From contig NKIM01000028.1 of the NCBI GenBank assembly GCA_002255955.1, positions 24,615-75,249 of the forward strand: DNA of 50,635 nucleotides, read 5' to 3'. Position numbers and translations under genes: made by a program. Positions 1,071-19,288 of the stretch are shown in pieces. Source of the stretch: Burkholderiales bacterium PBB2 (GTDB taxonomy: Bacteria; Pseudomonadota; Gammaproteobacteria; Burkholderiales; Burkholderiaceae_C). The notes under the pieces were generated by a model. It made no database searches. It was not told where the DNA came from and saw only the letters and a program-made list of their open reading frames with translations. Position 1 is the first letter of the stretch. Each line of letters opens with the position of its first letter.

Positions 1071-3293
1071 TCAAAAGCCCAGCTCGCGCCACAGCAGCAC
1101 CAGGGCGGCGCGGGCATAGCGCAGCCCCGGCGCCTCCCACTCGCCCTCAATCAGCACTTGGCCGCGCCAACTGTGCGGGGCCATGTCTGGCGGCGGCGCC
1201 GATGCCTGCAGGACGACGCGATAGACTGCATGCTCAGGAATGTGCTGGCCTTGCTGGTTGCGCGTGGCAATCGAGCCTCCCAGGGTCAGACTCAGCTCGG
1301 CGCCCGGCAGTTGGCGGGTGGCATCACGGTCGATCGCCAGCACCTTTAGTGCGATGGCCGGGCCTTCGAGGCCATCGGCCCGGAAGCGTCCTTGATTACC
1401 GACCTCAATGCGGCGTACCGCCTCCTCGTCCAGCCAGGTCTCAACCTGCCAGGCTTGCGGATTGACCAGCAGTGCCAGGCGCTCGCGCCGGGCCACCCAG
1501 GTGCCAGTCTGCAGCTCCGGGTTGATGTCGCGCAGCACGCCGTTGAAGGGCGCCTGCGGTCGGTACTGGGCCAACTCCGCCTGCAGATTGGCCAGCTCGG
1601 CCCGGGCTGTGTCTTCCTCCTGCTGCAGCACGCCGAGATTGCGGCGCTGCTCCTGATCCACGCCGGCCAAGCTGGCCTGCCAACGCAGCCGTTCCAGCCG
1701 TGCCTTTGCTTTTAGTTGGCGCAGCTGCAGTTCGGGTGAGTCCAACTCCAGCAGCAGTTGGCCGGCCGTCACCGGCGCGCCCTCGGTCCAAGGCAGGTTT
1801 TGCAGCCGCGCCCCGGCCGGCGCATACAGGGCCATCACCTGGATCGGCTTGAGCAGGCCCGAACTCGTCTGTCGCTGCGGCCAAGGCAGGATCACGGCCA
1901 GCAGCAGCAGGCCCAGCAGAAGGAGCGGGCGGCGCCAGGCACTCGCCCATGCAGCCCAGGATGAGGCTTTGTCTGCAATGCCTGCCCGCTGGCGCAGCAG
2001 GGCCGGCCACAGCTTGATCTCGCGCCACATGGGCAGGGCGACGAACCAGAGCAGCTCCAGCACAAAGAGCAGCACCCCGACCGCTTTGATGAAGAAGCCG
2101 TAGACCAGCACGGCGATGCCGAGAAAGACCACCAGTCGGTACAACCAAGTGGCGTAGGCGAACAGGATCAGGCCGCGCCGGCGCTGCCGGCTGAAGGTCT
2201 CTGGCGGCGGCAGGCCCAGTTTGAACAGGTGCTCCCGCAGCTGCCAGCGCGCCAGCGCAAAAGCTCGGCCATGCAGATTGGGCATGTCGAGCGCGTCAGA
2301 CAGGAAAAAGTAGCCGTCGAAGCGCATGAAGGGGCTGCTGTTGATAGCCACCGTGGTCAGCCAGGTCGTTGTGGCCAACATGAAGGCGGCAGAGCGCAGC
2401 CCACCGTCCGGTAGCAGGCTCCAGGCCAGGGTGGCCCAGACGGCGATCAGCAACTCGGTGGCGATGCCGGCTCCGGCCACGGCCAGGCGTTGTCTGGCGT
2501 TGCGCAGCTTCCAGACTTCGTTGGTGTCCGTGTAGGCCATGGGCCAGAGCACCAGAAAGGCCAGGCCCATGGTCGGCACCCGGCAGCCATAGCGCTTGGC
2601 CGTGAAGGCATGGCCCAGCTCGTGCATCAGCTTGGCCCCGCTGAGGGCAAGGCCGTAGCCCAGCAGACCGCCCCAGGAAAAGGTGTCGACCAGGGTGGCC
2701 GAGAAGCGGCCCCAGTCGCGGTAGACCTCGACCAGGCCGATCAGCAGGGCCAGCAGGGTGAGCCGGGCAAAGCCGCGGCTGTACAGCGGCGCCACCCAGG
2801 GCAGGGCGCGGTCCAGCCAGCGGTCCGGTCGGGCCAGGGGGATGCGGAAGAACAGATAGTGGTGCAGCAGCCAGGTCCAGGCATTGCCGCGTGCGCGCTG
2901 CAGACGCGCCGCCAGCTGCTGGGCGCTGTCGGCGGCGCGTGGTTGCACCAGCTGGTTGTCGATCAGGAACTGGGCGAAGGCCTGCACATCGGCAGCTTGT
3001 GGGCGCAGCGTGGTGCAGGCCTGTACATCGTCGGCAATCCGCTGCAGGTCATCGAGCGCCCAGCGGCTGAGGATCTCGAAACTCAGCCAGTCGATGCGGA
3101 AGAACTGGTGACGCACTGGATCCTGCAAGGTCCAGCTGGGTTGGCCGTCGGCCAGATCGGGGCCGGGGTGCAGGGCCAGTTCCTCGCGCAGCAGCGGTAG
3201 CCGGGGCGCACCGCCCGGCCGGGGCGGATCGAGCCTCAGCGGCGCGGCCATCGAGTCCGACGTCGGCAGCAAGGCGGAGCTGTGGTTCAGCAT
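1071..3293 (-). CDS. Membrane M50 metalloprotease fused to HlyD-like adaptor domain
   Basis: This 740-residue protein is probably a membrane-embedded component of the export locus. Residues about 50-118 (WTLQDPV, FFRIDWLSFEILSRW) resemble a PqqD-like winged-helix domain. Residues about 165-440 are polytopic and carry the site-2 protease motifs HELGH at 224-228 and NSSPFMRFDG at 318-327, which supply zinc and active-site ligands in family M50. Residues about 465-730 form a lipoyl/barrel-sandwich plus coiled-coil module of the HlyD type (APAGARLQNLPWTEGAPV, then a long alpha-hairpin). The ATG lies 4 bases after the stop of the upstream HlyD gene, so the two are translationally linked. It is the last gene of the five-gene operon. 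All core protease residues are present, so proteolysis or substrate handling is possible; the actual role is inference. Confidence 0.85.
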   Translation of the reverse strand: MLNHSSALLPTSDSMAAPLRLDPPRPGGAPRLPLLREELALHPGPDLADGQPSWTLQDPVRHQFFRIDWLSFEILSRWALDDLQRIADDVQACTTLRPQAADVQAFAQFLIDNQLVQPRAADSAQQLAARLQRARGNAWTWLLHHYLFFRIPLARPDRWLDRALPWVAPLYSRGFARLTLLALLIGLVEVYRDWGRFSATLVDTFSWGGLLGYGLALSGAKLMHELGHAFTAKRYGCRVPTMGLAFLVLWPMAYTDTNEVWKLRNARQRLAVAGAGIATELLIAVWATLAWSLLPDGGLRSAAFMLATTTWLTTVAINSSPFMRFDGYFFLSDALDMPNLHGRAFALARWQLREHLFKLGLPPPETFSRQRRRGLILFAYATWLYRLVVFLGIAVLVYGFFIKAVGVLLFVLELLWFVALPMWREIKLWPALLRQRAGIADKASSWAAWASAWRRPLLLLGLLLLAVILPWPQRQTSSGLLKPIQVMALYAPAGARLQNLPWTEGAPVTAGQLLLELDSPELQLRQLKAKARLERLRWQASLAGVDQEQRRNLGVLQQEEDTARAELANLQAELAQYRPQAPFNGVLRDINPELQTGTWVARRERLALLVNPQAWQVETWLDEEAVRRIEVGNQGRFRADGLEGPAIALKVLAIDRDATRQLPGAELSLTLGGSIATRNQQGQHIPEHAVYRVVLQASAPPPDMAPHSWRGQVLIEGEWEAPGLRYARAALVLLWRELGF

Positions 3294-3297
3294 GCAC

Positions 3298-4677
3298 TCA
3301 CCAGCCCAGCACCTGGCGCAGCAGGGCCAGCGGGCGGCGCAGCACCCAGTAGATCAGCGGCACCCGCTCGCCGGAAAGCTTGGCCGTGCCCTTGAGGCCG
3401 ACCCGGTGCTCGGTAGCCTGGTCGAGCCGGGCGCGCACCCGGTAGGCATAGCGCCCGTCGGGCCGCTGCACCGCTTCGAAGGCCATGTAGCGCAGCTTGG
3501 CCTCAATGGCCTGCAGCGGGCTGGCGTTCAGGTAGAGGCGGACTTCGGCCTGCTCGGGCAGCGGGATGGCGTCGCCGAGGTCCAGCCAGGCTTCCAGCTC
3601 GACGTCGCCGGCCCGCGCCAGCCGCATGATGCGTTCGCCGGTCGAGACCGGCCGGCCTATCCATTCGCTGGGGTCGTCGAAGAGCACGATGCCGTCTTCC
3701 GGTGCCAGCACATGGGCGCGCTCCAGCTGCCCTTGCAGATACTCGGCCTCCGCCCGGCGCTCTTCCACCTTGCCCATCAGCGGCGCTAGCTGGGCCTTGT
3801 AGCGGGGGTCGGAGACGGCCAGCTGGGCTGCTTGGCGGTACTCGGCTTCGGAGCCGGCCAGCGATTGCCGGGCCACCTCCAGCCGAGCTTGCAGGGCCGC
3901 GTCGTCGAAGCGGAACAGCGGCTGGCCGGCTTTCACAGCCTCGTTCGGCTTGACCTGGAAGCTGCCCAGCACGCCCTCCAGCGGCGCACGGATGACGGCC
4001 GGCCGGGCCGGCACCAGCTCACCCGGGGCTAGCACGCTGAGCCGCACCGGCAGCAGTGCCACTCCGGCCGCCAGCAAGAGCCAGCGCAGCCGTGGGCGGC
4101 GCCACCAGGCGCTCGGCGCTTCGGCCGCGTCTTGATGCTTGCCGCCAGTCAGTCGGCGCCACCAGCCGCCCTCGGTACGCGGACCGGCTGCGCGCCAGGC
4201 ATGCGTCCAGATGGCCGCCCATTCCAGCAGACTGGCTTGTTCCTCGGCTGACCAGGCCGGTTCGCGCAGCAGTAGCAGACCGCCCCGGCCGTCCAGCAGC
4301 GGCAACCACAGGCCTTGGGCCGGCAGCCAGTCGGCCCACTCGCTGGCCAGCTCAGGCGGCAGTGACTCGGCGGTGACCGTGCTCGGCTCGTCACCGGTCT
4401 GTGCGGCCAGATGGCCGCACAGACGCGCCAGATAGTGCACATAGGGCGCGTTGGCCTCGACCTGCACGACCCCGGACAGGGCGCGCACGCCGCCCTCGGG
4501 CAGCCACAACGCGCTCTGCCGGTAGGGTGCCAGCTGCAGGCTGTCGTTGACGGCTAGAAAGCCCAGCACCGCGCGGCTGCCGGCCTGCCGGGCTCGGCGT
4601 GCCAACTCCAGCAGGCGATCCGCCGAGCTGGTACCCGACGCAGGTCCTCCCTCATCTGTCGTCATGCCGGAGTGCAT
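3298..4677 (-). CDS. HlyD-family adaptor with large cytoplasmic N-terminal domain
   Basis: This 459-residue protein has three parts. Residues 1 to about 190 lack a signal sequence and look like a soluble, perhaps GAF-like, cytoplasmic domain (ALWLPEGGVRAL, GLWLPLLDGRGGLLLLREP). One transmembrane helix follows near 205-222 (RWLLLAAGVALLPVRLSVL). Residues about 225-455 are a periplasmic HlyD module with the split lipoyl halves (RAPLEGVLGSFQVKPNEAV and LAPEDGIVLFDDPSEW) around a coiled coil. Ordinary HlyD adaptors have only a short cytoplasmic tail, so the long N-terminal domain is notable. The gene starts 37 bases after the giant repeat-protein gene and is coupled to the M50-HlyD gene behind it. 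ATG 4677 is used; an ATG at 4665 is an alternative, and neither has a strong ribosome-binding site. Confidence 0.8.
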   Translation of the reverse strand: MHSGMTTDEGGPASGTSSADRLLELARRARQAGSRAVLGFLAVNDSLQLAPYRQSALWLPEGGVRALSGVVQVEANAPYVHYLARLCGHLAAQTGDEPSTVTAESLPPELASEWADWLPAQGLWLPLLDGRGGLLLLREPAWSAEEQASLLEWAAIWTHAWRAAGPRTEGGWWRRLTGGKHQDAAEAPSAWWRRPRLRWLLLAAGVALLPVRLSVLAPGELVPARPAVIRAPLEGVLGSFQVKPNEAVKAGQPLFRFDDAALQARLEVARQSLAGSEAEYRQAAQLAVSDPRYKAQLAPLMGKVEERRAEAEYLQGQLERAHVLAPEDGIVLFDDPSEWIGRPVSTGERIMRLARAGDVELEAWLDLGDAIPLPEQAEVRLYLNASPLQAIEAKLRYMAFEAVQRPDGRYAYRVRARLDQATEHRVGLKGTAKLSGERVPLIYWVLRRPLALLRQVLGW

Positions 4678-4714
4678 GCGCCATCGGCGTCAGCCTGTTC
4701 AATGATGGGCGGCA

Positions 4715-7700
4715 TCAGGCAGCGCTCCGTGATGACGCGGCTACGGCCCGCTCCAGTGGCTGGCCGCGGCCGGCCATGCGGATCTGCTCGCTGAAGCTGG
4801 CCCGGCCGCTCGGCTTCAGCTGCGACAGCGGCTTCTGCTGGGCGTCGCGCTTGTGGGCGTCCGTTTGAGGTTCGCGCGGCTCGCTGCCGTCGAATTCGAA
4901 GCTCAGTTCGTCTGCCGGCAGCGCATCAGGCTCGGTCTGCAGATCGCCAGAGTTCAGGTCCGTCGCGGGCATGCTGCGGCCCGAGGTGGCCGCCCCGGTG
5001 CCGACGCTGACCGTGATGCGGAAGATAGCGACCACCTCGCGCCCGTCCTGGTCACGCGCCACCACCCGTACGCTGAGATCGCCGCGCAGCCCCTGCGGCG
5101 GTGTGCCGCTGAAGCTGCCATTGCTGGCATTGAAACTGAGCCAGGCCGGCAGCGGCTGACCATTGACCTGGCTGGCCGCAAGCTGCACGACGGCGCCTGC
5201 ATCGGTATGAGCAAATGCATCGGCCGGAATGGCGAAGCTGAGTCTGCCGCCGCTGGTGATAGCCTGGTCCGGCACGCCCTTGAACAGCACCAGGGCCGGC
5301 TGATCGGCCTGGGTGACTGCGATCTGGAAGGCGCCGACACCGCCGCCGCTGCTGGTCAGCACCGGGGCCGCGCTGTTCGGCGTGCCAGTGGCGACGGTGT
5401 CCCGGGCCGGCGCTGCGGTGACCGGGCCGCTCGGCTGTGGCGCGGTCGCTGGAGCGGCGAGCGGTGCCGGTGCAGGCACCGGGGCAAGCGCTGCAGGAGC
5501 CGGCGCTGGCGCCAGATCGACTGGCAGCGGCTGCACGGGCAGGAGAGGCTGCAAAGGCTGCAGCGGCGAGGGCAGGTTCGGCGCGCCGGGGCGAGTGTCC
5601 TGGGTCAGGCCGGTGTCCACGGCCGGTGGCAGGCTGGGGGCGGGCACCGGTGCTGGAGCCGGCACAGGTGCAGGCGGAGCCGGTGGCGGCGGGGCTGGCG
5701 GCGACTCGGGTACCGGCGGAGGCGGTGCCACCGCCGTGATCGCGATCTGGAATTCGCTGCTGGCGGTGGCGCCGCCACCGTCGCTGGCCGTCAGGCGCAG
5801 GCGCAGCAGGCCGCTGTCCGCCGTGCCCGGCGTGCCGCTGAGGCTGCGAGTGGCCGGGTCGAAGCGCAGCCAGGCGGGTAGCGGGCTGCCGTCAGCCAGG
5901 CTCAGGCTCAAGCTCAGCGGTGCTGTGCTGTCTGGGTCGCTGAAAGCATCGGCTGGCAGGGTCAGCGCCAGCGTCTGGTCCTGGCGGATCTCGACATTGG
6001 CCGGCAAGCTGCCAACGCGCGGGGCGTCATTGCTGCCCTCGGCGCGAATCAGCAACTGCTGGCTGCTGCGGTTCTGGCCATCGGACACGTTGATGCTGAA
6101 GCTCGCGCTGGCCAGCTCGGCCAAACCGTTGATCGCGTCTTCATTGGGCGTGAAGGAGTAGGCGCCGGTGCGGGTGTTCAGTACCAGGCTGCCCAGCGGG
6201 CCGCTCAGGCTGCTCAGCTCGCCTTGCACGGTGCCGCCATCCAAGCTGTAGGTCAGCGTCGCGCCTTCGGCGTCGCTTGCGACCAGATTTCCAGTCATGG
6301 AGCCGAAGCTGTCTCGGCCGGGGCCATCGACCAGGCGCAGGGCCGGCAGCGCCTGCAGCTGCGGCGCGTCGTTGCTGCCCTCGAGCCGCACGCGCAAGAC
6401 GGTGCTGCTGCTGTTGCTGCCATCGGAGACGATCAGCTCGAAGCTCTCCTCGGCCGCGCTGGCCAGGGCATTGATGGCCGCGCTGTCGGGAATGTAGCGG
6501 TAGCTGCCGTCGCTGCTGTTGAGCACCAGGCTGCCGAAACGGCCGCGCAGCGTGCTGAAGCCGCCGGCCGTCGTGCCGCCGACCAGGCCGTAGCTGAGGC
6601 TGCCTCCTTCTGCATCGTTGACCGCGATGCGGCCCTGGATGTCGCCGAAGCTGTCAGCCGCGGCGGTGTCGCTGAAGACCAGATCAGCCGGCGCGCTGAT
6701 CACCGGCGCGTTGTTGCTGGCACTGATACTCACGCTGAAGACGGCACTGCTCTGCGCGCTGCCATCCGTGACCTGCAGGCTGAAGCTCTCGCTGGCGTCG
6801 GCGCCCAGGCTGGTGATGGCCTGCGCATCCGGCGTGTAGACGTAGGCACCGGTGGCGGTGTTCAGGCTCAGGCTGCCGTAGCGGCCTTGCAGGCGGCTGA
6901 TGCCGTCCGTCGTGACGCCGCCGGCAATGCTGTAGCTCAGACTGCTGCCGGCATCGCCGTCACTGCCTTGCAAGTTGCCGCGGGTCGGCTGCAGCTCTTG
7001 CGGCGTCATGCGGTCGTTGTACTGGGCGGCCTGCGGGGTAGGCAGTTGGGGCGCGTCATTGCGGCCGCTGAGCTGCACGTCCAGGTTCACGCTGCTGTTG
7101 CCGCCATTGCCGTCGCTGACGCTGAGCACGAAGCGCTCGGAGGCGTCGCTGCGCAGGCCGTTGATGGCCGCGTCATTGGGGCTGTAGCTGTAGGCGCCGG
7201 TGCTGGTGTTCAGACGCAGCGTGCCGTAGCTGCCGACCAGGGTGCTGAAGCCGCCGGCCACCGTGCCGCCCTGCAGGCTGTAGCTCAGGCCACCGCCTTC
7301 TGCGTCGCCGGCGCTGAGGCTGCCGTTGCTGGCCGCGAAACTGTCGTTCGCTGCCGTGTCCTCGAAGCGCAGCGGCGCTGGTGCCTGCAGCTGCGGGGCA
7401 TCGTTGCCAGCCGTCACATTGACAGTGAAGCTGGCGCTGCTGCTGAGCTGCCCATCGGAGATGCTGATCGTGAAAGTCTCGCTCGTGTTGCCGGGCAGGG
7501 CGTTGATGGCTGCATTGTTGGGCGTGTAGCTGTAGGCGCCGGTCGCGGTGTTGACGCTGAGGCTGCCGTACAGGCCTTGCAGCACGCTGAAGCCGCCGCT
7601 GCTGCTGCCACCGTTGATCGCATAGCTGAGCGTGCTGCCAGCGTCTGGGTCGTTGCCGGCCAGGTTGCCGGTGCTGGCGCCGAAGACGTCGAGCCCGGCC

Positions 7701-10700
7701 GTGTCTACATAGCTGATGCTGACCGGGTTCAGCTGCGGCGTCCGGTTGGCTTTGACCAGATTGACCACATAGCTGGCCGTGCCGGTCGCGCTGCCGTCCG
7801 ACAGGGTCAGAGTGAAGGTCTCGCTGGTGCTGGCCCCCAGGGCGTTGATGGCCGCCGCATTGGGTGTGAACACATAGGCGCCGGTCGGGGTGTTGACTGC
7901 CAGTCTGCCGTGCCCGCCGACCAGTGTGCTAAAGCCGCCGGCCACCGTGCCACCGCTGACGCCGTAGCTCAGCGTGCTGCCGACTTCGCGGTCGCTGCCG
8001 GCCAGGTTGCCGCTGGCGCTGGCGAAGCTGTCGTTGGCCTCGGTATCGGTGTAGCTGACCGGGGTCGGCGCCGTCAGCACCGGGGTGTCGTTGGCGGCCG
8101 TCAGATTGACCGTGTAGCTGGTGTTGACGCTGCTGTTGCCATCCGACAGGCTGATGGTGAAGGTCTCGCTGGTGTTGGCGCCCAGGGCTTTGATGGCGGC
8201 GCTGTCGGGCGTGAACACGTAGGCGCCGGTGGCGGTATTGACTGACAGTGTGCCGTAGCTGCCGGCCTTGCTGCTGAAGCCGCCGGCCAGGGTGCCGCCG
8301 CTGATGGCGTAGCGGAGCGCGCCACCCTCGGCGTCGCTGCCGCCCAGACTACCGTTGACATTGGCGAAGCTGTCGTTGGCCGCGGTGTCGACCAGATTGG
8401 CCGCGGCCGGCGTGGGCAGCAGCGGCGCGTCATTGGCGCCGGTGAAGTTGACGGTGTAGCTGGCCGTGGCACTGCTGACGCCGTCAGACACGCTGACGGT
8501 GAAGTTCTCGCTGCCATTGGCCGTCAGGCCGTTGATGGCCGCCGCATTCGGCGTGTAGACGTAGGCGCCGGTGCTGGTGTTGACGCTCAGCGTGCCGTAG
8601 CTGCCGACCAGTGTGCTGAAGCCGCCGGCCACGGTGCCGCCGGTGATGCCGTAGACCAGGCTGGCGCCCGCGTCGACGTCGGCGCCGGCCAGGCTGCCGC
8701 TGTCATTGCTGAAGCTGTCGGCGGCGCTGGTGTCGACATAGCTGGCCGGGGTGACGGCGCCCAGGGTCGGCGCATCGTTGACGGCGCTGACCACGATGGA
8801 GGCGCTGCCGCTGGCGCTGGAGAAGGCGCTGCTGCCGCCATTGCTGGCGGTGCTGACCTTTTGTGCGCTGCCGAAAGTCGAGGCCGTGCCGCTGCTCTGG
8901 TCCCAGGCGCGGTAGGCGAGGGTGGCGGTCTCACCGTTCTGCCCGTCGGGCAGATAGCGCAGGCGGCTGCTGGCGCTGAGCAGCAGGGCGCTGTTGCCGG
9001 ACACGGCGCCGACGGCCGCCCAGTTCGTGCCATCGGTCGAGTACTGCCAGCTGCCGTTGCCGCTGCCGGCCGTCAGGGCCAGGCCGGCGAGGGCGCCGCT
9101 GTCCACATCGGCCCAGCCGCCGCTGGCCAGGATGTCGGACACCAGGGCACCGGCGCTGGCCGTGTCCTCGTCGGTGCCGGTGAAGACATGGTTGACCCCG
9201 CCCAGCGTCGGCGCGTCATTGACGGCGGTGACGGTGATCATCGAGTTGACCGTGCTGCCGGCCAGGCCGCCGTCGTTGTTGCTGCTGGAGCCGCGCACCG
9301 AGAAGCCGGCGCTGCCATTGAAATTGGCCGTGGGCCGGAAGTAGACCGAGGTGCTGATGCCGGCGCTGGCGATGAAGCTGCCCTCGGCGATGACGCTGGT
9401 GTAGCCCGCATCGCTGTACAGCGTGCCGCCGCTGATGGCGCTGAGCTTGTAGAAGGCATCGGTGCCGGAGATGGTGATGGCGCCAGAGTCGCTGTCTTCG
9501 TTGATGGTCGGGCTGGCCACGGCGATGCCGGTGGAAATGATGGCGTGCACCAGGGCGCCGCCGAGTCCGCCGTCGTTGTTGCTCAGCGAGGCCTGGGCGT
9601 CGAAGCTGCCGTCGCTGGCGCCGCTGGGCGTGAACTTCAGGCCGGCGTTGCCCTGGGCGAAGGTGATGAAGCTGCCCTCGCTGACGACGGTCGTGCCGTC
9701 GTTCAGATACAGCGTGCCGTTGCTGATGCCGGTGATCTTGAAGTGGCTGACCTCGGCGCCGTCGGCGGCATTGCGGCTGAACACCAGGCCGCTGCTGCTC
9801 TGCGTGGCCGGCGTTGTTGCTGCGCCGGTGACGCTGGGCGTGTCGGCCACGGCATTGAGGTTGAGGGTGACGGTGTCGCTGTCATTGAGCGTGCCCGCTC
9901 CGTTGTCGCTGCTGCTGATCGTCAGCGTGGCGTAGCCGGCGCCAAAGGCATTGGCCGTCGGTGTGTAGCTGACCGAGGCCAGGGCGGCCTGCACCTGGGC
10001 GGCCGTGCCGACGATCTGCACCGAGTTCGTGCCGTCGCCGCTGATGCTGGCGCCGCCGCCGAGCGTGACGCTGAGGCTGCCCTTGCCGGCGCCGACCGAG
10101 AGCACCGTGGTCAGGATGCTGCCGGCATCGACATCGCCGACCGAGAGCGCATTGCCATTGCCGACCGAGAAGACCCGCACGGTGTCTTCGTTGAAAGTCT
10201 GGGCGCCGGGCACGGTGTTCACCGGCGCTTCGTTGACATTGCTGAGATTGATGGTGATGGTGGCGGTGGAGTCGGCCGTGCTGTCGCCGTCCTCGTCGTC
10301 CACGGTCACGGTCAGGCTGAAGCTGGGGTTGCTCTCGTAGTCCAGGGCTGCCGCATTGGCCACGGTGATGGCGCCGGTCGCGGCATTGATGGCGAAGGCG
10401 CCCCCAGTGTTGCCGCCGGTGATGGCGTAGTTCAGGCCATTGGTGTCGCCGGTGGCGGTGACGGTGGTGACGGCCGTGCCATTGCCGCTGTTCTCGGCCA
10501 GGCCAGCGCTGGCGTTGCTGATCACCGGGTTGATGTCGGTGGTCGTCACCGTGATGGTGCGGGTGGCCGTGCCGCCATTGCCGTCGCTGACCTGCACGGT
10601 GAAGCTGTCGCTGCCCGAGTAACCGGCGGTCGGTGTGTAGGTGATGGTGCCGCCGGGGGTGATGTCGCCGCCGCCGGAGCTGGCCGTGGCTGCGCTGAAG

Positions 10701-13700
10701 CTCAGCGTGCCATGGCTGGGTGCAGCGCTTTGCGACCAGACCAGGGTCTGGCCGCTGTCGGCGTCGCTGGCATGCAGCAGGCTTTTGATGTCGGCCGCGC
10801 CGGAGTTCTCGTCCACCGTCAGGGTGGTGGTGGCGCCGACAAAGCTGGGCGCCAGATTGGGCGGGGTGGCGGCGCTGAGGTTGATGGTGTCCAGTGCCAA
10901 ACCCACGCCGCCGCCCGTGGTGGCGGTGAATCGCACCGTGTCGATATTGTTCCAGGCACTGCCAAAGCTCAAATTGCCACCGTTGTAGACGGCGGAGCCC
11001 TTGCTGTAGACGATCGCCGAATTGCCGGCCCCGTACGTGGCGCCCTGCGCGAAATTGAAGCCGGTCACCTGCGCCACCATCGTGCCGCCGGACCCGCCTT
11101 GATAGCCGGTGATGGTGAAGTTGCTCGGGAAGCCTCCTATGATGTCCCCCGCATTGGCGGCCAGCGAGATCAGCCGGAAGTCATCGGCGAGGCCCAGGGA
11201 GCTGAATTGAAAGTAGGTGATGCTCCCGCTGGCTGAGCCCGTATAGTCGTTGATGATGGCTTTGCCAGTGAAGTTGGTGAATGTCTCTGAATAAAAGCCA
11301 TTCACGTCGTCCAGGACGTCGACTTGGGCTGGGCCATTGCTGCTGAACACGAGGTTGCCGATGGTGCGGCTGGTGCTGGTATTGCCATTGTTGCCGCTGG
11401 ATTCGAAGTTCTGATCCGCCGGCTCGGCCAGATTGTTCAGATTGACCGTGACCGTTGCCGTCGCGTCGGCCGTGCTGCCGGCGTCCTCGTCGTCGACGGA
11501 GACCGTCAGCGTCAGGCTGCTGGCGGCCTCGTAGTCGAGGTCGGCGCCGGTCGCCACGCTGATGGCGCCGGTGCTGCTGTTGATCGTGAACAGGCCCTGG
11601 CCGCTGCCGCCGGTGATCGCATACGTGAGGCCGTTGGTATCTCCCGTCGCGCTGATCGTGCCCACGGCGCTGCCGCCGGCCACGTTCTCATTGACGCTCA
11701 TCGTCGCGTTGCCCAGCACCGGATCAACATCGTTGACGGTGACGGTGATGGTGCGGGTGACCGTGCCGCCGCTGCCATCGCTGACCTGCACGGTGAAGCT
11801 GTCGCCACCGGTGTAGCCAGCGGTCGGTGTGTAGGTGATGGTGCCGCCGGGCGTGATGTCGCCGCCGCCAGAGCTGGCGGTGGCGGCATTGAAGCTCAGC
11901 GTGCCATGGCTGGGCGCGGAACTCTGCGACCAGGTCAGCGTCTGGCCGTTGTCGCTGTCGCTGACGTGCAGCAGGTTCTTGATGTCGATGGCGCTGCTGT
12001 TCTCGTTGGCGCTCAAGGTGGTGGTGGCCCCGACGAACACCGGGGCTGCATTCGGGGGCAGCAGCACGCGGCCTTCCACGCCCTTGTTGTTGCTGCCGTC
12101 CGAGCTGTTGTCGGTCCAGACGGCGGCAAAGCGATCGCTGCCGACGCCGGTCAGTGCGACCGTGTTCTGGTGGCCGCGACGGTACTGGTTGATTTCGAAG
12201 TCACTGCCGTCCACGGCCACGCCAGTGGCCGAGAAACGGCGGCCGAACAGGCCCGACTCGTCGTAGTCGCCGGTGTCGGCCTGCCAGCCGATAACGAAGC
12301 CGCCGCCTGACAGGGCGGCAATCGTCGCTGCGTCCTTGTAGGTGCCGGCTGCGCTGCTGGTATTGGCTTGGGTGATGCTGCCCTGTGCCGCGCCGGCATT
12401 GTTGTAGCGCTGGAAATAGATGTCGCACTGCGCGTAGCCGGCGTCGTAGGCGCTCCAGGCGACGACGAAGCCGCCGCCGCTAAAGCCGACAACCTTTGCG
12501 GCCGGCAGGCCGCTGTTGGCCACGTCGGAAGAGGCCAGGCCGTCGCTGGTGACGTCGATGACGGTGGACGGCGCGCTGCTCACCACGGCCTTGATGTTGT
12601 AGCTGTTGCTGTCACCCCAGGCCAGCACGTAGCTGCCATCGCTGAGTGCGGCCAGGCTGGGACTGACATTGCCGCCGCTAGCGTCCAGGCTCAGCTCGCC
12701 GCCGTTTTTGCTGCCGTCGGTGGCATTGAATTTCTGGGCCTGGACGCCGGCGGCGGTGGTCCAGGCGATGACGAAGGAGCCATCGCTCAGCGTGGCCATC
12801 GTCGGCGCGGCCTGATCGCCGGCGTTGGCGGTGTTGGCGATCTGCTGGCTACCCACCGTGCCATTGGCTTCGACGATGCGGTAGCCGATGTCCCGGCCAG
12901 TGCCGGTCGTCGTGTACGCCACGGCGAAGCGGCCGCCGTTCAGCGCGGTGACCACCGGCGTGATCTCGTCCACGCCGTTGCCGGCGGTGGTGATGGCGAA
13001 CTCCGCGCTCAGCGGCGCGCCCATGGCGTCGTAGATGCGGGCATAGATGCCGTTCTGGCCAGCGGCCTCGCCGCCCTGGCCATCGCTCTGCCAGACCGAC
13101 ACGAAGTTGCCATTGCTGAGCGTGGTCACGCTGGCATTCGTCTGGTCGCGGGTGCTGGTGCTGCTGACATCCAGGTCGTCACCGAAGTTCAGGTCCTGCG
13201 AGGTGGCGGAGACCACGGTGTAGGTCAGGGTCTTGGCATAACCTTGACCATTGATTGGGTTGTTGCTGTTGTCTGTCTGATAGCGGTCGTAGTAGCGGGC
13301 GGTCACTGTGATTGTTTGTCCCACGGCTGGTAGCACGCCCGTGCCCATGCTGAGGGTGGCTGTGTTGCCATTGGCCACGGGAGCGATCGTGAACAGATTG
13401 CTGTCCGACTGGCTATCGATGACCCAGACGCCGCCCGTGGTGTAGCCGATGTCGGTGGGGGTCAGCGTGGCCACCACCATGCTCTGGCTGGCGTCCGACA
13501 AGACGTAGTTGCGGTTGCTGCCGATGTCGGTTGGTGCAGTGTCCGGGCCCACGAACATGCCTGACGTCGTGGTGGAATTGGGAACGCCCGAAGACTGGTA
13601 GCCGATGAAAAAGGAATTATTCGTCGTGGCATTGCCGGGCTGGCTGTCGACAAAGCGCCAGGTCGTCCCGGCCGCGGTGATGTAGGAGCTGAAGTTGCCG

Positions 13701-14710
13701 TCGTAGTTGTAGGTGGTCCAGGAGGCGCCGCCATTGCTGCTGTACTCGAAGCTGCCGCGGTTCAGCGTGCCGCCACCATATGCAATTGTGGTCGTGGGTT
13801 GGGTGCCCTGGCCTGGGATTTCGCAGGTTCCAAAGCTCCAGACGTCGCTGATGCCTCCGGGCCGAACATAGACCGAGGTGTTACCTGTGCCCGGATTCGC
13901 CACCCGCGGCGCAGGCAGGATGGCGTCGTAGGCAATGTTGCTGATCGGCTGAGTGTCGGCCACGTCACCGGACTTCGATTCGAGCACCCAGTTGCCTCCC
14001 AGTGCCGCCGCGCCCGTGGCGTCGACAGAGGCCGCCACGTCGGCCTGGGTGGCGCGCGCAATCGCGTCCACAAAGGCCTGACCTTCGGCGCCGGCGGCAA
14101 TATTGCAGCCATACAGCAGTACATCGCCCTGAGGAGCCAGGCTGGCACCGATGGCGGCCAATTTGTCGGCATGGGCGGGCATGTTCTCGCTGGTCAGGGT
14201 CACCGAGCCCAGGCCCAGCACGCCCTTGGCACCGTGGGAGAGGACGTGAAGGGCATCGATATCGCTGCGCCCGGCCAGCGCTGCTGCAATCTGCGCCAGT
14301 CCGTCCTGGGTGGAGTCCAGCACATGCACTTCGGTGCCCGGCTTGAGCCCGTCCAGCAAGGTCTTGTAATTCGCGACATTGCCCTCGACGAACACGATCT
14401 CGTTTCGTTGCCCGGCTGCCCCTTGGTCGACCGGCGCAGCCCGACCGGGCTCCGACAATGTCCTTGCCGCCTCGGCCGCCGACTCCGCCTGGTGCTCGGC
14501 TTCGACGACAGTGGCCATGCCCGCACCGTCGAACATTAGGCGCGCTTCCAGTGCCAGCATCTGCGGGCGTGCTTGTAGGATCTGCCGCGGCCCCTCGGCC
14601 GGGGCTTCACGCCGGCTGCTGCAGCGCTTGCCGCAGCCGCTCACATGCTCGCCGACCGCGACGAAGGCCTGAGTGACTTCGTTCCAGATGGAGTTGTAAA
14701 TGCGGTTCAT
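4715..14710 (-). CDS. Giant secreted repeat protein (ESPR, LEARLMFDGA, DUF4347, cadherin/VCBS repeats)
   Basis: This 3331-residue protein is probably a surface or secreted adhesin. ATG 14710 was chosen over earlier in-frame codons because GGAGAT lies 7 bases upstream and the N-terminus MNRIYNSIWNEVTQAFV matches the extended signal peptide region (ESPR) of type V substrates. LALEARLMFDGA (52-63) is a LEPR-like motif. Residues about 103-256 form a DUF4347 domain with LSHG and LLYGCN. A stretch with repeated 'GNFVSVWQSDG'-type motifs follows, then cadherin-like domains (ITYTPTAGY, DSFTVQVSDG), eight VCBS-like repeats, a CADG-type domain, a Pro/Ala-rich linker (near bases 5390-5730), a second CADG-type domain and a basic tail. 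No glycine-rich RTX nonapeptides or autotransporter beta-barrel are visible, so export should need the neighbouring adaptors. Confidence 0.88.
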   Translation of the reverse strand: MNRIYNSIWNEVTQAFVAVGEHVSGCGKRCSSRREAPAEGPRQILQARPQMLALEARLMFDGAGMATVVEAEHQAESAAEAARTLSEPGRAAPVDQGAAGQRNEIVFVEGNVANYKTLLDGLKPGTEVHVLDSTQDGLAQIAAALAGRSDIDALHVLSHGAKGVLGLGSVTLTSENMPAHADKLAAIGASLAPQGDVLLYGCNIAAGAEGQAFVDAIARATQADVAASVDATGAAALGGNWVLESKSGDVADTQPISNIAYDAILPAPRVANPGTGNTSVYVRPGGISDVWSFGTCEIPGQGTQPTTTIAYGGGTLNRGSFEYSSNGGASWTTYNYDGNFSSYITAAGTTWRFVDSQPGNATTNNSFFIGYQSSGVPNSTTTSGMFVGPDTAPTDIGSNRNYVLSDASQSMVVATLTPTDIGYTTGGVWVIDSQSDSNLFTIAPVANGNTATLSMGTGVLPAVGQTITVTARYYDRYQTDNSNNPINGQGYAKTLTYTVVSATSQDLNFGDDLDVSSTSTRDQTNASVTTLSNGNFVSVWQSDGQGGEAAGQNGIYARIYDAMGAPLSAEFAITTAGNGVDEITPVVTALNGGRFAVAYTTTGTGRDIGYRIVEANGTVGSQQIANTANAGDQAAPTMATLSDGSFVIAWTTAAGVQAQKFNATDGSKNGGELSLDASGGNVSPSLAALSDGSYVLAWGDSNSYNIKAVVSSAPSTVIDVTSDGLASSDVANSGLPAAKVVGFSGGGFVVAWSAYDAGYAQCDIYFQRYNNAGAAQGSITQANTSSAAGTYKDAATIAALSGGGFVIGWQADTGDYDESGLFGRRFSATGVAVDGSDFEINQYRRGHQNTVALTGVGSDRFAAVWTDNSSDGSNNKGVEGRVLLPPNAAPVFVGATTTLSANENSSAIDIKNLLHVSDSDNGQTLTWSQSSAPSHGTLSFNAATASSGGGDITPGGTITYTPTAGYTGGDSFTVQVSDGSGGTVTRTITVTVNDVDPVLGNATMSVNENVAGGSAVGTISATGDTNGLTYAITGGSGQGLFTINSSTGAISVATGADLDYEAASSLTLTVSVDDEDAGSTADATATVTVNLNNLAEPADQNFESSGNNGNTSTSRTIGNLVFSSNGPAQVDVLDDVNGFYSETFTNFTGKAIINDYTGSASGSITYFQFSSLGLADDFRLISLAANAGDIIGGFPSNFTITGYQGGSGGTMVAQVTGFNFAQGATYGAGNSAIVYSKGSAVYNGGNLSFGSAWNNIDTVRFTATTGGGVGLALDTINLSAATPPNLAPSFVGATTTLTVDENSGAADIKSLLHASDADSGQTLVWSQSAAPSHGTLSFSAATASSGGGDITPGGTITYTPTAGYSGSDSFTVQVSDGNGGTATRTITVTTTDINPVISNASAGLAENSGNGTAVTTVTATGDTNGLNYAITGGNTGGAFAINAATGAITVANAAALDYESNPSFSLTVTVDDEDGDSTADSTATITINLSNVNEAPVNTVPGAQTFNEDTVRVFSVGNGNALSVGDVDAGSILTTVLSVGAGKGSLSVTLGGGASISGDGTNSVQIVGTAAQVQAALASVSYTPTANAFGAGYATLTISSSDNGAGTLNDSDTVTLNLNAVADTPSVTGAATTPATQSSSGLVFSRNAADGAEVSHFKITGISNGTLYLNDGTTVVSEGSFITFAQGNAGLKFTPSGASDGSFDAQASLSNNDGGLGGALVHAIISTGIAVASPTINEDSDSGAITISGTDAFYKLSAISGGTLYSDAGYTSVIAEGSFIASAGISTSVYFRPTANFNGSAGFSVRGSSSNNDGGLAGSTVNSMITVTAVNDAPTLGGVNHVFTGTDEDTASAGALVSDILASGGWADVDSGALAGLALTAGSGNGSWQYSTDGTNWAAVGAVSGNSALLLSASSRLRYLPDGQNGETATLAYRAWDQSSGTASTFGSAQKVSTASNGGSSAFSSASGSASIVVSAVNDAPTLGAVTPASYVDTSAADSFSNDSGSLAGADVDAGASLVYGITGGTVAGGFSTLVGSYGTLSVNTSTGAYVYTPNAAAINGLTANGSENFTVSVSDGVSSATASYTVNFTGANDAPLLPTPAAANLVDTAANDSFANVNGSLGGSDAEGGALRYAISGGTLAGGFSSKAGSYGTLSVNTATGAYVFTPDSAAIKALGANTSETFTISLSDGNSSVNTSYTVNLTAANDTPVLTAPTPVSYTDTEANDSFASASGNLAGSDREVGSTLSYGVSGGTVAGGFSTLVGGHGRLAVNTPTGAYVFTPNAAAINALGASTSETFTLTLSDGSATGTASYVVNLVKANRTPQLNPVSISYVDTAGLDVFGASTGNLAGNDPDAGSTLSYAINGGSSSGGFSVLQGLYGSLSVNTATGAYSYTPNNAAINALPGNTSETFTISISDGQLSSSASFTVNVTAGNDAPQLQAPAPLRFEDTAANDSFAASNGSLSAGDAEGGGLSYSLQGGTVAGGFSTLVGSYGTLRLNTSTGAYSYSPNDAAINGLRSDASERFVLSVSDGNGGNSSVNLDVQLSGRNDAPQLPTPQAAQYNDRMTPQELQPTRGNLQGSDGDAGSSLSYSIAGGVTTDGISRLQGRYGSLSLNTATGAYVYTPDAQAITSLGADASESFSLQVTDGSAQSSAVFSVSISASNNAPVISAPADLVFSDTAAADSFGDIQGRIAVNDAEGGSLSYGLVGGTTAGGFSTLRGRFGSLVLNSSDGSYRYIPDSAAINALASAAEESFELIVSDGSNSSSTVLRVRLEGSNDAPQLQALPALRLVDGPGRDSFGSMTGNLVASDAEGATLTYSLDGGTVQGELSSLSGPLGSLVLNTRTGAYSFTPNEDAINGLAELASASFSINVSDGQNRSSQQLLIRAEGSNDAPRVGSLPANVEIRQDQTLALTLPADAFSDPDSTAPLSLSLSLADGSPLPAWLRFDPATRSLSGTPGTADSGLLRLRLTASDGGGATASSEFQIAITAVAPPPPVPESPPAPPPPAPPAPVPAPAPVPAPSLPPAVDTGLTQDTRPGAPNLPSPLQPLQPLLPVQPLPVDLAPAPAPAALAPVPAPAPLAAPATAPQPSGPVTAAPARDTVATGTPNSAAPVLTSSGGGVGAFQIAVTQADQPALVLFKGVPDQAITSGGRLSFAIPADAFAHTDAGAVVQLAASQVNGQPLPAWLSFNASNGSFSGTPPQGLRGDLSVRVVARDQDGREVVAIFRITVSVGTGAATSGRSMPATDLNSGDLQTEPDALPADELSFEFDGSEPREPQTDAHKRDAQQKPLSQLKPSGRASFSEQIRMAGRGQPLERAVAASSRSAA
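6033..8779 (-). repeat. Tandem array of eight VCBS-like repeats inside the giant gene
   Basis: Eight units of about 340-345 bases (about 114 residues) follow one another. Each starts near an NDAP-like motif, continues with a 'DTAANDSF'-type segment, then 'SYGTLSVNTATGAYVYTP' and 'SETFTISLSDG'-like motifs, and ends at the next NDAP. Unit six diverges most at its beginning (DRMTPQEL) and units seven and eight are more divergent overall. The array probably forms an extended rod of beta-sandwich domains. High similarity between neighbouring units makes the copy number prone to change by recombination and to assembly error. Confidence 0.85.
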
Positions 14711-14805
14711 GCTGAAATCTCCGGCAAATGGACAAGGACCGCTGGGTGCGCTGCGGGGCTTGCGTGAGGCTTGCTTGGTCCCTGTGTTGGAGCGTGCGCG
14801 CCGCC

Positions 14806-15627
14806 TTACTGGCCGCCCGGCGCGACGATGCTGACCCGGCCGCTCATGCCGGCGATCAGCTCCGGATAGCGGCCGCTGATGGTCGCCACCAAACGTACCG
14901 ACTGGCTGACCGGATCGACCCGCGCCGCGATGCGCTGCACTTTGGCCGGGTAGCTCTTGCGGGTCTCGTCGATGCCAACCTGGAAGACATGGCCGACCTT
15001 CATCCAGGCCAACCATTTGCTGGGCACCAGGAATTCCAGTTCCAGCACGCTGTCATCGATGATGTCCAGAATGGCCTGGCCCGGCTGGATGTACTGCTGC
15101 TCGCGGGCCTTCTGCTCTGCCACCCGGCCCGAGAAGGGCGCGGTGATGCTGCACTTGGCCATCATGGTGCTCATGGCGGCGAGCTCGGCTTGGTTCTTCT
15201 GCACCTCGGCCTCGGACAGGTCCAGCTCGACCCGGCCCACCGAGTTCAGCTCGGCCAGGCGCTTGTTGGCGGCCCAGTTTTTTTCGGCGCCTACCAGGGC
15301 AGCACGTGCCTTGTTCAGCTGCGCCTGCTGCAGCGAGCAGTCGAAGCTGATCAGCACCTGGCCGGCACGGAAGCTGCCGCCGTCCTGCACCGGCAGGCGC
15401 TGGATCTTGGCGCCGATCTCGGCTGCCAGCGTGGTGTAGCGATGCGGAGCCAGCTGGGCGCGGATCTCTCGCTGTTCCAGGCTGGGCTTGGGTGCGGTCG
15501 TCGCGGAGGCAGCCGACGTCGGCGCGGGCGCTTGCGCAAGCGCAGGCATCGGAGCCACGAGCAGGACGGCGGCCAGGGCACCCCAGGATCTCAGGCCCCG
15601 GCCGAAGTAGCAAGAAAAAACATTCAT
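14806..15627 (-). CDS. HlyD-type periplasmic adaptor (membrane fusion) protein
   Basis: This 273-residue protein starts with a cleavable signal peptide (hydrophobic core GALAAVLLVAPMPALA, cleavage probably after ALA-Q near residue 32). It has the half-lipoyl motifs IGAKIQRLPVQDGGSFRAG and ITAPFSGRVAEQKAREQQY around a short alpha-hairpin, then a beta-barrel segment ending in GMSGRVSIVAPGG. This is the short RND/efflux type of adaptor, soluble or loosely anchored in the periplasm, rather than a full inner-membrane HlyD. It lies 25 bases after the tolC-like gene and 95 bases before the giant protein gene, so it should bridge inner-membrane parts to the outer-membrane channel of this export locus. 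Family assignment is firm; the partner assignment is inferred from position. Confidence 0.88.
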   Translation of the reverse strand: MNVFSCYFGRGLRSWGALAAVLLVAPMPALAQAPAPTSAASATTAPKPSLEQREIRAQLAPHRYTTLAAEIGAKIQRLPVQDGGSFRAGQVLISFDCSLQQAQLNKARAALVGAEKNWAANKRLAELNSVGRVELDLSEAEVQKNQAELAAMSTMMAKCSITAPFSGRVAEQKAREQQYIQPGQAILDIIDDSVLELEFLVPSKWLAWMKVGHVFQVGIDETRKSYPAKVQRIAARVDPVSQSVRLVATISGRYPELIAGMSGRVSIVAPGGQ

Positions 15628-15652
15628 CCGGGCGGCCTGCTTGGTGATCGTC

Positions 15653-17302
15653 TTAACTGGCCGAGGCCGGAGCGGCGACCTCGCTGTGGCTGGGCAGATC
15701 GCCGGCCTCCCAGCGCTGGATCGCAGCCGCGATGGCCGCCATCAGCTCGGCCAGACTGGCCTCGTGCACGCTGCCCAGCTGCGGCTCCATGCCCAGGGTG
15801 GCCTGCAGTCGGCTGGCCGCGGCATGGGCTTGCGCCAGCGACTGGTAGCGGCGCAGCTGGCTCAGGATGGCGGTGGTGTGATTGGCCACCGTTTCCAGCT
15901 TGCTGGACGCCTGGGCCTGTTCACGGTTGCTCATATGGGTCTTGATGCGGTCGTCGACGACCCAGATCGCGTCCGAGCGCTGGTACTGCTGCAGTGCGTT
16001 GGCGTACTGCAGGCGGGCGATGTGGACCTGGGCCAGCAAGGCCATCTGCGCCGCCACCCGGCGCTGCTCAGCCAGGGTGACCCCGGCCTCGGCCAGCTTC
16101 CGCTGCGAGGGCATGGAGAACAGATTCAGCAGATTGAAGGACAGCTGGGCACCGGCGGCATTCCAGTTGTCGTGTACCAGGTACTTGTCGTTGTCGTACT
16201 TCAGACCCAGATTCAGATTCAGATTGGGGAAGAGGCGCAGCAGCACCTTGCGCGCCTCATCGCTGGCCAGGCGGGTGTTGTAGAACTGCTCGCGCAGATC
16301 GGCATTGCCTGCGATGGCCGCGGCTTCCATCGCTTCCATCGGCAAGTCCAGCATTCGCCGGTTTAGCGCGCCGTTCGACTCCTGCACCTGCAGCTCCGTG
16401 CCGGAAGGTGCATTGACCAGATGGGCCAGCTCGATGCGCGCGGTGGCCAGTTCCTGGTCGATCGATTCCAGCAGGCGAAGGTTCTCCAGCAGCTGGCGCT
16501 GGTAACGCAGCGAATCCAGCGGCGAGCGCAGGCGCTCGTCCTCCGCCTTGCGGGCGTCAGTCAAGGCGTCCTCAGCCAGGCTGATGGCCGACTTGACCTC
16601 GCCGCGCAGCTTCTGCGCGCTGGCAGTGCGCCAGAACACGCTGCGAACGTCCTGAATCAGCAGATGCATGGCCTTGCGGCGGCGCTCGACGGCGATCAGC
16701 GCGCGGTCCGCGTTTTGCTTGGCGCCGTAGTAGGACAGGCCGAAATCCAGCAGGCTCCAGGTCAGGCCAAGATCGCTGGCCGTGTGGCTCTTGTCGCTGG
16801 AGATGAAGGGGTTGGCCAACGAGGGTTGACCGGTCACCGAGTCGACCGCCCTGCTGGTCGCGAACTCGCTGCGTGTGCTGTAGCCGGCCGATGCGACCAG
16901 CTTGGGAAGCATGTCGTAGCGGCTGGCGTCCAACTGGTTGAAGGCGATGGCTTCTTCCATCAGCCGTGTGCGTCGGTCCAGATTGAACTTCAGTGCCCGC
17001 GCGATCGCTTCCTCAAGGCTCAGCGGCCCCGTGATCGGATCGACGTTGTGCCGCGACTGAGTGCGATCCAGTGCGGCCTGTGATTGGATCTCGCCAACTT
17101 TCAGCGGCTCTGGTTGCACGCTGGCGCATGCCGCCATCAGAGCGGCCATGCCGAGCACACTGGCGAACTGCAAGGGCGCGCGACGCTGTGCTTTGCCCTT
17201 CGCTGCTGCTGCCGATCGAATCCGCCACGGATCGTGGCCCTCAGATTCAGTGTTCTTCTGTCGAGCAACGGATGAATTGCTGCAGGCAACAAAACTGACC
17301 AT
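15653..17302 (-). CDS. TolC-family outer-membrane channel, lipoprotein type
   Basis: This is a 549-residue outer-membrane efflux protein. ATG 17302 is preceded by GGAG at 7-base spacing and is preferred over a GTG 42 bases upstream. A signal segment (FASVLGMAALMAAC) ends in a lipobox, so the mature protein should be a lipoprotein; the region before it is long and basic (about 45 residues). The two TolC repeats are visible: LSLEEAIARAL opens the first, and paired long helices with ALIAVERRRKAMHLLIQDV and ARIELAHLVNAPSG follow; the second repeat has ARKVLLRLFPNLNLNLGLKY. It is the first gene of the five-gene minus-strand export operon and would form the outer-membrane exit duct. Confidence 0.88.
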   Translation of the reverse strand: MVSFVACSNSSVARQKNTESEGHDPWRIRSAAAAKGKAQRRAPLQFASVLGMAALMAACASVQPEPLKVGEIQSQAALDRTQSRHNVDPITGPLSLEEAIARALKFNLDRRTRLMEEAIAFNQLDASRYDMLPKLVASAGYSTRSEFATSRAVDSVTGQPSLANPFISSDKSHTASDLGLTWSLLDFGLSYYGAKQNADRALIAVERRRKAMHLLIQDVRSVFWRTASAQKLRGEVKSAISLAEDALTDARKAEDERLRSPLDSLRYQRQLLENLRLLESIDQELATARIELAHLVNAPSGTELQVQESNGALNRRMLDLPMEAMEAAAIAGNADLREQFYNTRLASDEARKVLLRLFPNLNLNLGLKYDNDKYLVHDNWNAAGAQLSFNLLNLFSMPSQRKLAEAGVTLAEQRRVAAQMALLAQVHIARLQYANALQQYQRSDAIWVVDDRIKTHMSNREQAQASSKLETVANHTTAILSQLRRYQSLAQAHAAASRLQATLGMEPQLGSVHEASLAELMAAIAAAIQRWEAGDLPSHSEVAAPASAS

Positions 17303-18068: not shown

Positions 18069-18388
18069 ATGAAGAAGTCCCCGAAGTTTTCGCCCGAGGT
18101 GCGTGAGCGTGCTGTGCGCATGGTGCTGGAGCACCGAGCAGAACACCCGTCGCAGTGGGCGGCCATCGAATCCATCGCCGACAAGATCGGCTGCGTGCCG
18201 CAGACCTTGCACACTTGGGTGAAACAGCACGAGGTCGATGCCGGCCAGCGAGACGGTGTCTCGACTGCGGAGGCTCAGCGCATCAAGGAACTGGAACGAG
18301 AGGTGCGCGAGCTGCGCAAGGCCAACGAGATTCTGAAGCTGGCCAGCGCGTTTTTCGCCCAGGCGGAGCTCGACCGCCGCATCAAGTC

Positions 18389-18392
<4 letters not shown>
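18069..18392 (+). CDS. IS3-family transposase OrfA
   Basis: This 107-residue protein is the DNA-binding subunit of the IS3-type transposase. It has an N-terminal helix-turn-helix ([34 protein letters not shown]) and a C-terminal leucine-zipper-like helix ([18 protein letters not shown]) ending in the family-typical [15 protein letters not shown] lies shortly upstream of the ATG. The stop codon overlaps the beginning of the orfB frame (TTGA at 18389-18392), as expected for elements that make OrfAB by -1 frameshifting; a TTTTTC run near 18350 is a possible slippage site. Confidence 0.92.

Positions 18393-19288
<896 letters not shown>

Follow-up and report, generated by a model that had tools for sequence, protein, structure and literature searches.

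A five-gene operon of Burkholderiales bacterium PBB2 that probably exports and processes giant proteins bearing a LEPR-type leader at the N-terminus

How can a giant repeat protein leave the cell if the genes around it specify a TolC-like channel and HlyD-type adaptors but no ATP-binding cassette (ABC) exporter? The question is raised by a five-gene operon of Burkholderiales bacterium PBB2 (genome size 5.48 Mb, 90 contigs), which lies in a stretch of 50,635 nucleotides of contig NKIM01000028.1 (hereafter the window) and includes a gene for an M50 (site-2-type) protease that is fused to an HlyD adaptor of its own. From a comparison of the locus with its relatives we consider it probable, at roughly 60%, that the operon encodes machinery dedicated to the export and processing of giants whose N-terminus carries a LEPR-type leader. 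The unit is most aptly regarded as a separate kind of secretion system, i.e. one that is defined by the machine and the leader together; it does not include an ABC exporter and on this defining feature does not qualify as a type 1 system.

A preliminary description, made from the letters of the window, had listed five same-strand genes for a channel, two adaptors, a giant substrate and the protease fusion, and these identities are confirmed by Pfam matches that all lie above cut-off. The genes are on the minus strand (as are all operon features given below) with intergenic gaps of 4-95 bp, and in coding order they specify the outer membrane channel, the soluble adaptor, the giant, the membrane adaptor and the M50-HlyD fusion. 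The TolC-like channel (15653..17344) matches the OEP family (PF02321, 98.3 bits); its frame starts with GTG, the actual start is probably more internal, and the N-terminus carries, as judged by eye, a lipobox-like LMAAC. The soluble periplasmic adaptor (14806..15627; HlyD_3, 73.4 bits) belongs to the membrane fusion family of the resistance-nodulation-division (RND) type (TIGR01730, 125.5 bits, cut-off 94.9) and its N-terminus looks, again by eye, like a signal peptide. In the case of the giant, the listed frame of 3433 aa overlaps the soluble adaptor gene, and we therefore took the ATG at 14710 as the likely start, which yields a protein of 3331 aa (4715..14710) with DUF4347 (13934..14398; PF14252, 179 bits), Big_9, cadherin-like and VCBS domains. 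The membrane adaptor (3298..4677; HlyD_3, 61.9 bits) consists of an N-terminal domain of some 190 residues (presumably cytosolic), a single transmembrane segment (199-217, by hydropathy) and the HlyD barrel, and the fusion (1071..3293, 740 aa) combines the protease (PF02163, 31.5 bits) and four membrane segments (by hydropathy at the cut used) with a C-terminal HlyD part (PF13437, 46.4 bits).

The giants have two short motifs in common, namely LExRx(M/L)FD(G/A)A near the N-terminus (the LEPR-type motif, the core of which holds an invariant Glu and Arg) and GRxSLSEQLR near the C-terminus. In the window giant the former reads LEARLMFDGA (residues 54-63; 14522..14551), constitutes the proposed export leader and scores an E-value of 1.2e-12 to the motif profile (A3), of which the window sequence is itself one row; the latter reads GRASFSEQIR (4778..4807). 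Of 66 proteins whose genes lie upstream of the membrane adaptor (several of these frames are clearly no giants), 39 contain a strict form of the C-terminal pattern and 53 a loose form, versus 0/1047 and 7/1047 other frames, respectively.

The evidence that connects the leader to the machine comes from two draws of genomes. The first comprised 300 genomes of the order, and a close M50-HlyD orthologue (a match of more than 400 bits, the next match reaching 184) was present in 30 of these. An N-terminal motif profile, which is 30 residues long and built from 30 rows, matched 32 genomes at an E-value of 1e-5 or better (the next matches start from 0.0057), i.e. 30/30 genomes with a close orthologue versus 2/270 others. 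One of the two (labelled G193) bears fragments of the channel and M50 genes on the same contig; in the other (G104) the genes for channel and soluble adaptor are present at 58-59% identity, and their contig ends inside the giant. Motif and M50 gene are at most 30 kb apart in 22 of the 30 genomes and on different contigs in the other eight.

The second draw comprised 329 genomes of the phylum, with an E-value threshold of 0.01 for the motif and of 1e-150 or better for a close M50 match. The motif was recovered in 69 genomes and the M50 profile in 86, of which 74 are close. Both were present in 68, which corresponds to 68/69 motif genomes with the gene and 68/74 gene genomes with the motif. The single genome with a motif and without a close M50 match (G482) is 57% complete, and this form of the motif was found in 0/12 genomes that have only a distant clade of the fusion. 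The two draws share among their positives only G000, G093 and G015, and one of the few profile rows from named records might stem from a genome of the second draw. With the three shared genomes removed, Fisher's test gives 3.1e-60 for the second draw, a value that ignores descent; within the 16 families that show both states (92 of 300 genomes, those with family codes) the agreement between motif and gene has a product probability of 2.1e-14. The possibility, raised in the preliminary description, that the fusion occurs mostly without a giant substrate gene is contradicted by both draws.

Two observations on individual genomes can be added. Locus L258 (G193, contig C37, 7000-8600) is a decayed operon with a LEPR start, pieces of the channel and M50 genes and an apparent adaptor tail, and it looks as if motif and machine had been lost together. 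In some genomes (G324, G339 and G398) six motif matches stand beside three M50-HlyD matches, with only three candidates scored per genome in these counts, which suggests paired paralogous systems.

DUF4347, which is present in 48 of the 300 genomes, serves as a natural control. We classified 76 of 77 DUF4347 loci (L213 of G038 gave no match and was excluded) with a LEPR pattern that was written after viewing the sequences. LEPR stands ahead of DUF4347 in 34/39 proteins from genomes with a close M50-HlyD gene, in 13/16 from genomes that have either the distant clade or a fragment, and in 0/21 from genomes without M50-HlyD; by genome the counts are 27/27, 10/11 and 0/9, the exception (G159) having only an M50 fragment, on a contig of a highly fragmented assembly. 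The C-terminal motif is missing as well from two DUF4347 proteins of M50 genomes that have no LEPR, and it occurs in 0/14 DUF4347 proteins that are readable to their end and stem from seven genomes without M50-HlyD. The tails of such proteins, i.e. those from genomes without M50-HlyD, hold DUF4214 (8/10) or RTX (4/10) domains in 10/10 cases scanned, and all nine of the corresponding genomes have a PrtD-type ABC above cut-off versus 9/30 genomes with a close M50-HlyD gene. As these tails are type-1-like, DUF4347 seems to be common to two export routes. G093, a single contig, has the operon and no DUF4347 match, and its adjacent frame of 4385 aa starts with LALEPRLLFDGAAM. DUF4347 was thus rejected as the defining trait of the substrates, for it is absent in a genome with operon and motif and motif-less in the nine genomes without M50-HlyD, and control and G093 together imply that the motif follows the machine and not the domain. 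The co-occurrence of the fusion with DUF4347 giants that was to be expected from the preliminary description therefore holds in part: the fusion does go with a motif-bearing giant, but the substrate is defined by LEPR instead of DUF4347. As a side observation, the DUF4347 proteins of L138, L139, L158, L167, L168, L171, L174, L177, L180, L182 and others begin near the domain.

The unit as a whole is conserved. A profile search in named genomes yielded at least 595 relatives of the M50 protein among 597 candidate stretches, and the best 80 of these were kept. At least 1450 bp upstream of the M50 gene is available in 72 of the 80, and in 70 of these 72 the membrane adaptor lies directly upstream, by a criterion that missed the membrane adaptor of L057 that is visible in the reading of the locus. 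The order channel, soluble adaptor, giant, membrane adaptor, M50 recurs in many loci with long flanks, and the unit recurs across the Pseudomonadota, plasmids included; the substrate gene stands ahead of the channel gene in several alphaproteobacteria, in P. cichorii and on enterobacterial plasmids.

Plasmid copies were found in 72 of 72,556 records of a plasmid collection (match to the M50 protein at an E-value of 1e-8), 50 of which match across at least 80% of the protein. Among 5426 complete E. coli genomes, 24 match the four non-giant genes of an E. coli plasmid copy (22 across at least 80%), and 21 out of the 25 places in E. coli are on plasmids. Because the gene tables of the collection are incomplete (CH34 is without any), we searched the plasmid DNA directly: with three ABC exporter queries no ABC was found within 13 kb of the M50 gene in the five plasmid copies searched, the sole match being the annotated fecE of L162 at more than 13 kb. 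The substrate has a LEPR start in 4/5 plasmid copies. In L162 (NZ_CP060066.1) the operon adjoins lac and fec genes and insertion sequences, and in the Citrobacter plasmid L163 (NZ_CP142906.1, 18565-19909) the annotation splits the membrane adaptor into two frames that overlap.

The earlier statement that neither the operon nor the window contains an ABC exporter stands: the sole ABC signature found in the window lies near 30189, and none of the 10 ABC_membrane matches of the PBB2 genome is on the operon's contig, by which an exporter elsewhere on that contig is ruled out. In relatives, too, an HlyB-like ATPase is rarely near the fusion. A type-1-like ABC lies within 10 kb in one of the 32 relatives that have 10 kb on both sides, in a count that took only ABC matches aligned over more than 330 residues. 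Matches of importer size are present in several loci, and in G180 an LssB-like ABC is located some 12 kb away with other frames in between. The idea that the five genes form one machine is in this way partly supported, namely as a conserved unit without an ABC exporter and usually with a motif-bearing substrate gene.

The M50-HlyD protein meets the definition of an M50 (site-2) protease, i.e. HExxH plus a distal Asp ligand. The zinc/catalytic motif HELGH (residues 224-228; 2610..2624) supplies H224, E225 and H228, and Asp326 in PFMRFDGY (2316..2318) is presumably the third zinc ligand of M50 proteases. These four residues are unchanged in 23/23 aligned orthologues, and the corresponding residues are present in 7/7 members of the distant clade. 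The N-terminal domain (residues 33-118; 2940..3197) is homologous to the PqqD-like domain (the recognition element of pathways for ribosomally synthesized and post-translationally modified peptides, RiPPs) of the distant clade: the profiles of the two clades align over nearly their full length, N-terminal domain included (E-value 5.5e-75), and PF05402 (PqqD) scores above cut-off at the N-terminus of nine distant-clade proteins. In RiPP pathways, domains of the PqqD kind bind the leader peptide. Among named families, the M50 part comes closest to daptide_HExxH (NF041824, E-value 5.4e-42) and YydH/LiaK (NF058609, E-value 4.3e-5), both matches being under the curated cut-offs.

On this basis a route can be sketched. 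By analogy with the RiPP pathways, the PqqD-like N-terminal domain of the fusion would bind the LEPR leader. The fusion and the membrane adaptor would form the base in the inner membrane, and the soluble adaptor and the TolC-like channel would complete the path to the outside. Having read the leader, the fusion may hold or insert it, with its HlyD part and the other two adaptors making the connection to the channel, and the intramembrane protease may cut at or near the LEPR motif and thereby free or commit the giant. The C-terminal GRxSLSEQLR could be a further signal that serves, for instance, late release or retention. The giant might traverse the inner membrane either via the base of fusion and adaptor or with the help of Sec.

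Several observations weigh against a dedicated machine of this kind, or against the numbers from which we argue for it. The first draw is partly circular, because the motif profile was drawn largely from genomes that have the gene. Moreover, 23 of the 30 profile rows are literal and the other seven carry one to three wrong letters, and the genome-wide motif searches were made with all 30. A profile of the 23 literal rows recovers 30/30 loci of the second draw (lowest 33.4 bits; three of these loci come from first-draw genomes) and 0/18 DUF4347 loci of genomes without M50-HlyD (highest 5.3 bits), and for this reason the co-occurrence counts were kept. Six genomes have a close M50-HlyD gene and no motif match (G303, G355, G357, G424, G432 and G494); three of the six are 75-82% complete and the match of G303 is partial. 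The substrate of plasmid pMSR-1 is annotated at 492 aa and has the C-terminal motif only, without the N-terminal one, and among the PF05402 matches listed none is at the N-terminus of a close-clade fusion. ABC genes do occur next to the unit: in L079 an HlyB-type ABC (597 bits, cut-off 725.55) follows 33 bp after the M50 gene and is itself followed by RTX proteins, in L104 a MacB-type ABC lies within 10 kb (missed in the flank count on account of the alignment length), and in G104 genes for LssB, HlyD and OEP stand directly before the channel gene. At the level of the genome, 27/30 M50-HlyD genomes hold some ABC of a type 1 class if weaker and truncated matches are counted, and as a consequence a borrowed ATPase is opposed by three genomes only. 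Lastly, a Vibrio giant reported in PMC10868602 combines LEPR-XLL with C-terminal RTX domains, which implies that the two protein ends can be combined otherwise than seen here.

Among the alternatives, the one that survives best, although we consider it unlikely, is that Sec carries the giant across the inner membrane and that the operon takes care of the outer membrane and of clipping, the LEPR segment being an unusual Sec signal that is cut by the M50 protease instead of signal peptidase. Such a role would account for a unit that has no energy-coupling protein, and it agrees with what is seen by eye in many N-termini, namely basic residues ahead of a LEPR stretch of moderate hydrophobicity. 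It also agrees with the ESPR motif at the extreme N-terminus of the window giant (14600..14710; PF13018, 53.2 bits), which begins at the likely start ATG. ESPR is known from type 5 proteins and elsewhere stands ahead of Sec signals. Against Sec is the hydropathy: in 28/28 N-termini, read from 45 residues ahead of the motif to 25 behind it, the mean of every 19-residue segment stays below 1.6 (median 1.01), and a Sec-like hydrophobic segment was likewise not found by hydropathy in the window giant. The invariant Glu and Arg in the core of the motif are unlike a signal core, and to our knowledge the passage from the periplasm into a TolC channel is without precedent for proteins of such size. 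In the window giant the ESPR precedes the LEPR motif without the usual hydrophobic core, and similar starts were seen by eye in L054, L097 and L100.

Somewhat less probable still is that export of the giant relies on an ordinary ATPase of a type 1 class (LssB/LapB, HlyB or PrtD) with its gene elsewhere in the genome and that the operon merely provides adaptors, channel and a maturation protease. PBB2 indeed has an LssB/LapB-class type 1 ATPase, encoded on another contig (780.5 bits, cut-off 693.1), and the LssB class (E-value 1e-180 or better) is enriched with the fusion (17/30 versus 54/270 genomes), in line with the neighbouring ABC genes of L079 and G104 and with the count of 27 genomes given above. 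This ATPase, however, is already paired with HlyD and OEP genes of its own that adjoin it, and no single type 1 class is common to all M50-HlyD genomes: apart from LssB, HlyB is above cut-off in 8/30 and PrtD in 9/30. In G093, G120 and G297 none of the three classes was found. The four exporter-type ABCs of G297 (at an E-value of 1e-10) are one MsbA above cut-off and MsbA-, SmdA- and SmdB-like proteins below theirs; in G093 none of the 3 classified out of 6 exporter-type ABCs, and in G120 none of 9, is above a type 1 cut-off. A genomic ATPase that is strictly co-conserved with the locus, the other finding by which the preliminary description could have been overturned, was thus not recovered. 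Furthermore, the plasmid copies have no ABC within the unit, the LEPR giants end differently from the DUF4347 proteins of genomes without M50-HlyD, and the three adaptors of the window score 19.2, 25 and 30.2 bits to the type 1 HlyD model TIGR01843, short of its cut-off of 208.65. The LssB-HlyD-OEP set of PBB2 (L128, G000, contig C42) lies amid glycosyltransferase-like frames, and no large substrate is present in the 20 kb that were read.

The least probable alternative, modelled on LapG, which releases LapA, is that the M50-HlyD protein regulates display, i.e. that the giant remains threaded in the channel by its N-terminus until the protease releases it on a signal that the membrane adaptor senses through its N-terminal domain, for which the N-terminal motif, the conserved protease residues and the extra domain of some 190 residues can be cited and against which stands the weak resemblance of that domain to GAF (2/28 relatives, best E-value 0.079); as a final step it would be compatible with the export machine that we favour.

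Compared with known systems, the export machine proposed here shares with type 1 secretion (HlyBD-TolC, LapBCE) the presence of adaptor and TolC-type channel in one operon and a giant repeat substrate, but it has no ABC exporter in the unit and has the M50-HlyD protein at the inner membrane, and its giant has an N-terminal motif, another C-terminal motif and no RTX. In the window giant the GGxGxD count is 0 and neither an RTX nor a DUF4214 domain was matched; a standard RTX substrate was, given this and the different C-terminus, ruled out. The M50 proteases that process RiPP leaders (NF041824, NF058609) are the closest named relatives of the M50 part and resemble the distant clade in its PqqD-like domain; here, however, the protease carries an HlyD adaptor as fusion partner and goes with giants instead of peptides. 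With PEP-CTERM/exosortase the system has in common a short sorting motif that was found via a phylogenetic profile shared with protein families (PMC1569441), whereas the motif is N-terminal here and is accompanied by an M50 protease and a channel across the envelope. Tripartite RND and MacAB efflux pumps have a similar RND-type adaptor and OEP channel, but the five genes include no RND, major facilitator superfamily or MacB pump. The giant shares ESPR with type 5 secretion, yet no beta-barrel translocator or TpsB domain is among its Pfam matches, and its partner in the operon is the OEP channel.

The closest likeness of the leader itself is to LEPR-XLL (NF012209) and the Planctomycete extracellular motif (PF07595; RRLxxExLExRxLLA), kindred N-terminal motifs on very long proteins. 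The window N-terminus matches neither model, and the likeness to planctomycetes concerns the form of the motif only. Of two relatives tested, that of the close clade scores 15 bits and that of the distant clade 23.5 bits to NF012209 (cut-off 17), and to PF07595 (cut-off 25.5) the latter scores 16.4 bits and the former has no match. The parts of PMC8567305 that were covered report the motif in 52 genes of Tuwongella immobilis and in 8 of the 10 longest proteins of this species, describe it as a putative new export signal of cell-surface proteins (after Studholme et al. 2004) and name no exporter for it. In the literature, covered mostly at the level of titles and abstracts and with most subscription journals outside, we found no account of an M50-HlyD export system; LEPR-XLL itself turned up there in two incidental mentions.

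As to the surroundings, the operon (at 1071) ends some 400 bp from the end of what appears, by eye, to be the 3' part of glmS (34-669). The neighbourhood of glmS is an insertion place of Tn7-type elements. Just upstream of the channel gene lies an apparent IS3-type transposase pair (18069-19288), and further on there are four apparently paralogous frames of the agmatine-deiminase type (19457-20542, 20570-21724, 22811-23896 and 36334-37473), all judged by eye.

In a wider sense it is conceivable, if short of probable, that the exporters still missing for LEPR-leader proteins throughout the bacteria, including planctomycetes, are M50-HlyD machines, i.e. ABC-free machines in which the leader-reading fusion acts as receptor and gate and which could take proteins of several thousand residues from the cytosol to the outside. 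What is new is that a LEPR-type motif is tied to a five-gene operon, and with the proteobacterial motif linked to a defined operon the reader of the signal becomes directly testable. The two-ended signature of LExRxMFDGA and GRxSLSEQLR allows the prediction of substrates. If the proposed reading is true, there would be a route for giant proteins without the pump that defines type 1 secretion, and one that is plasmid-borne also in E. coli and Citrobacter.

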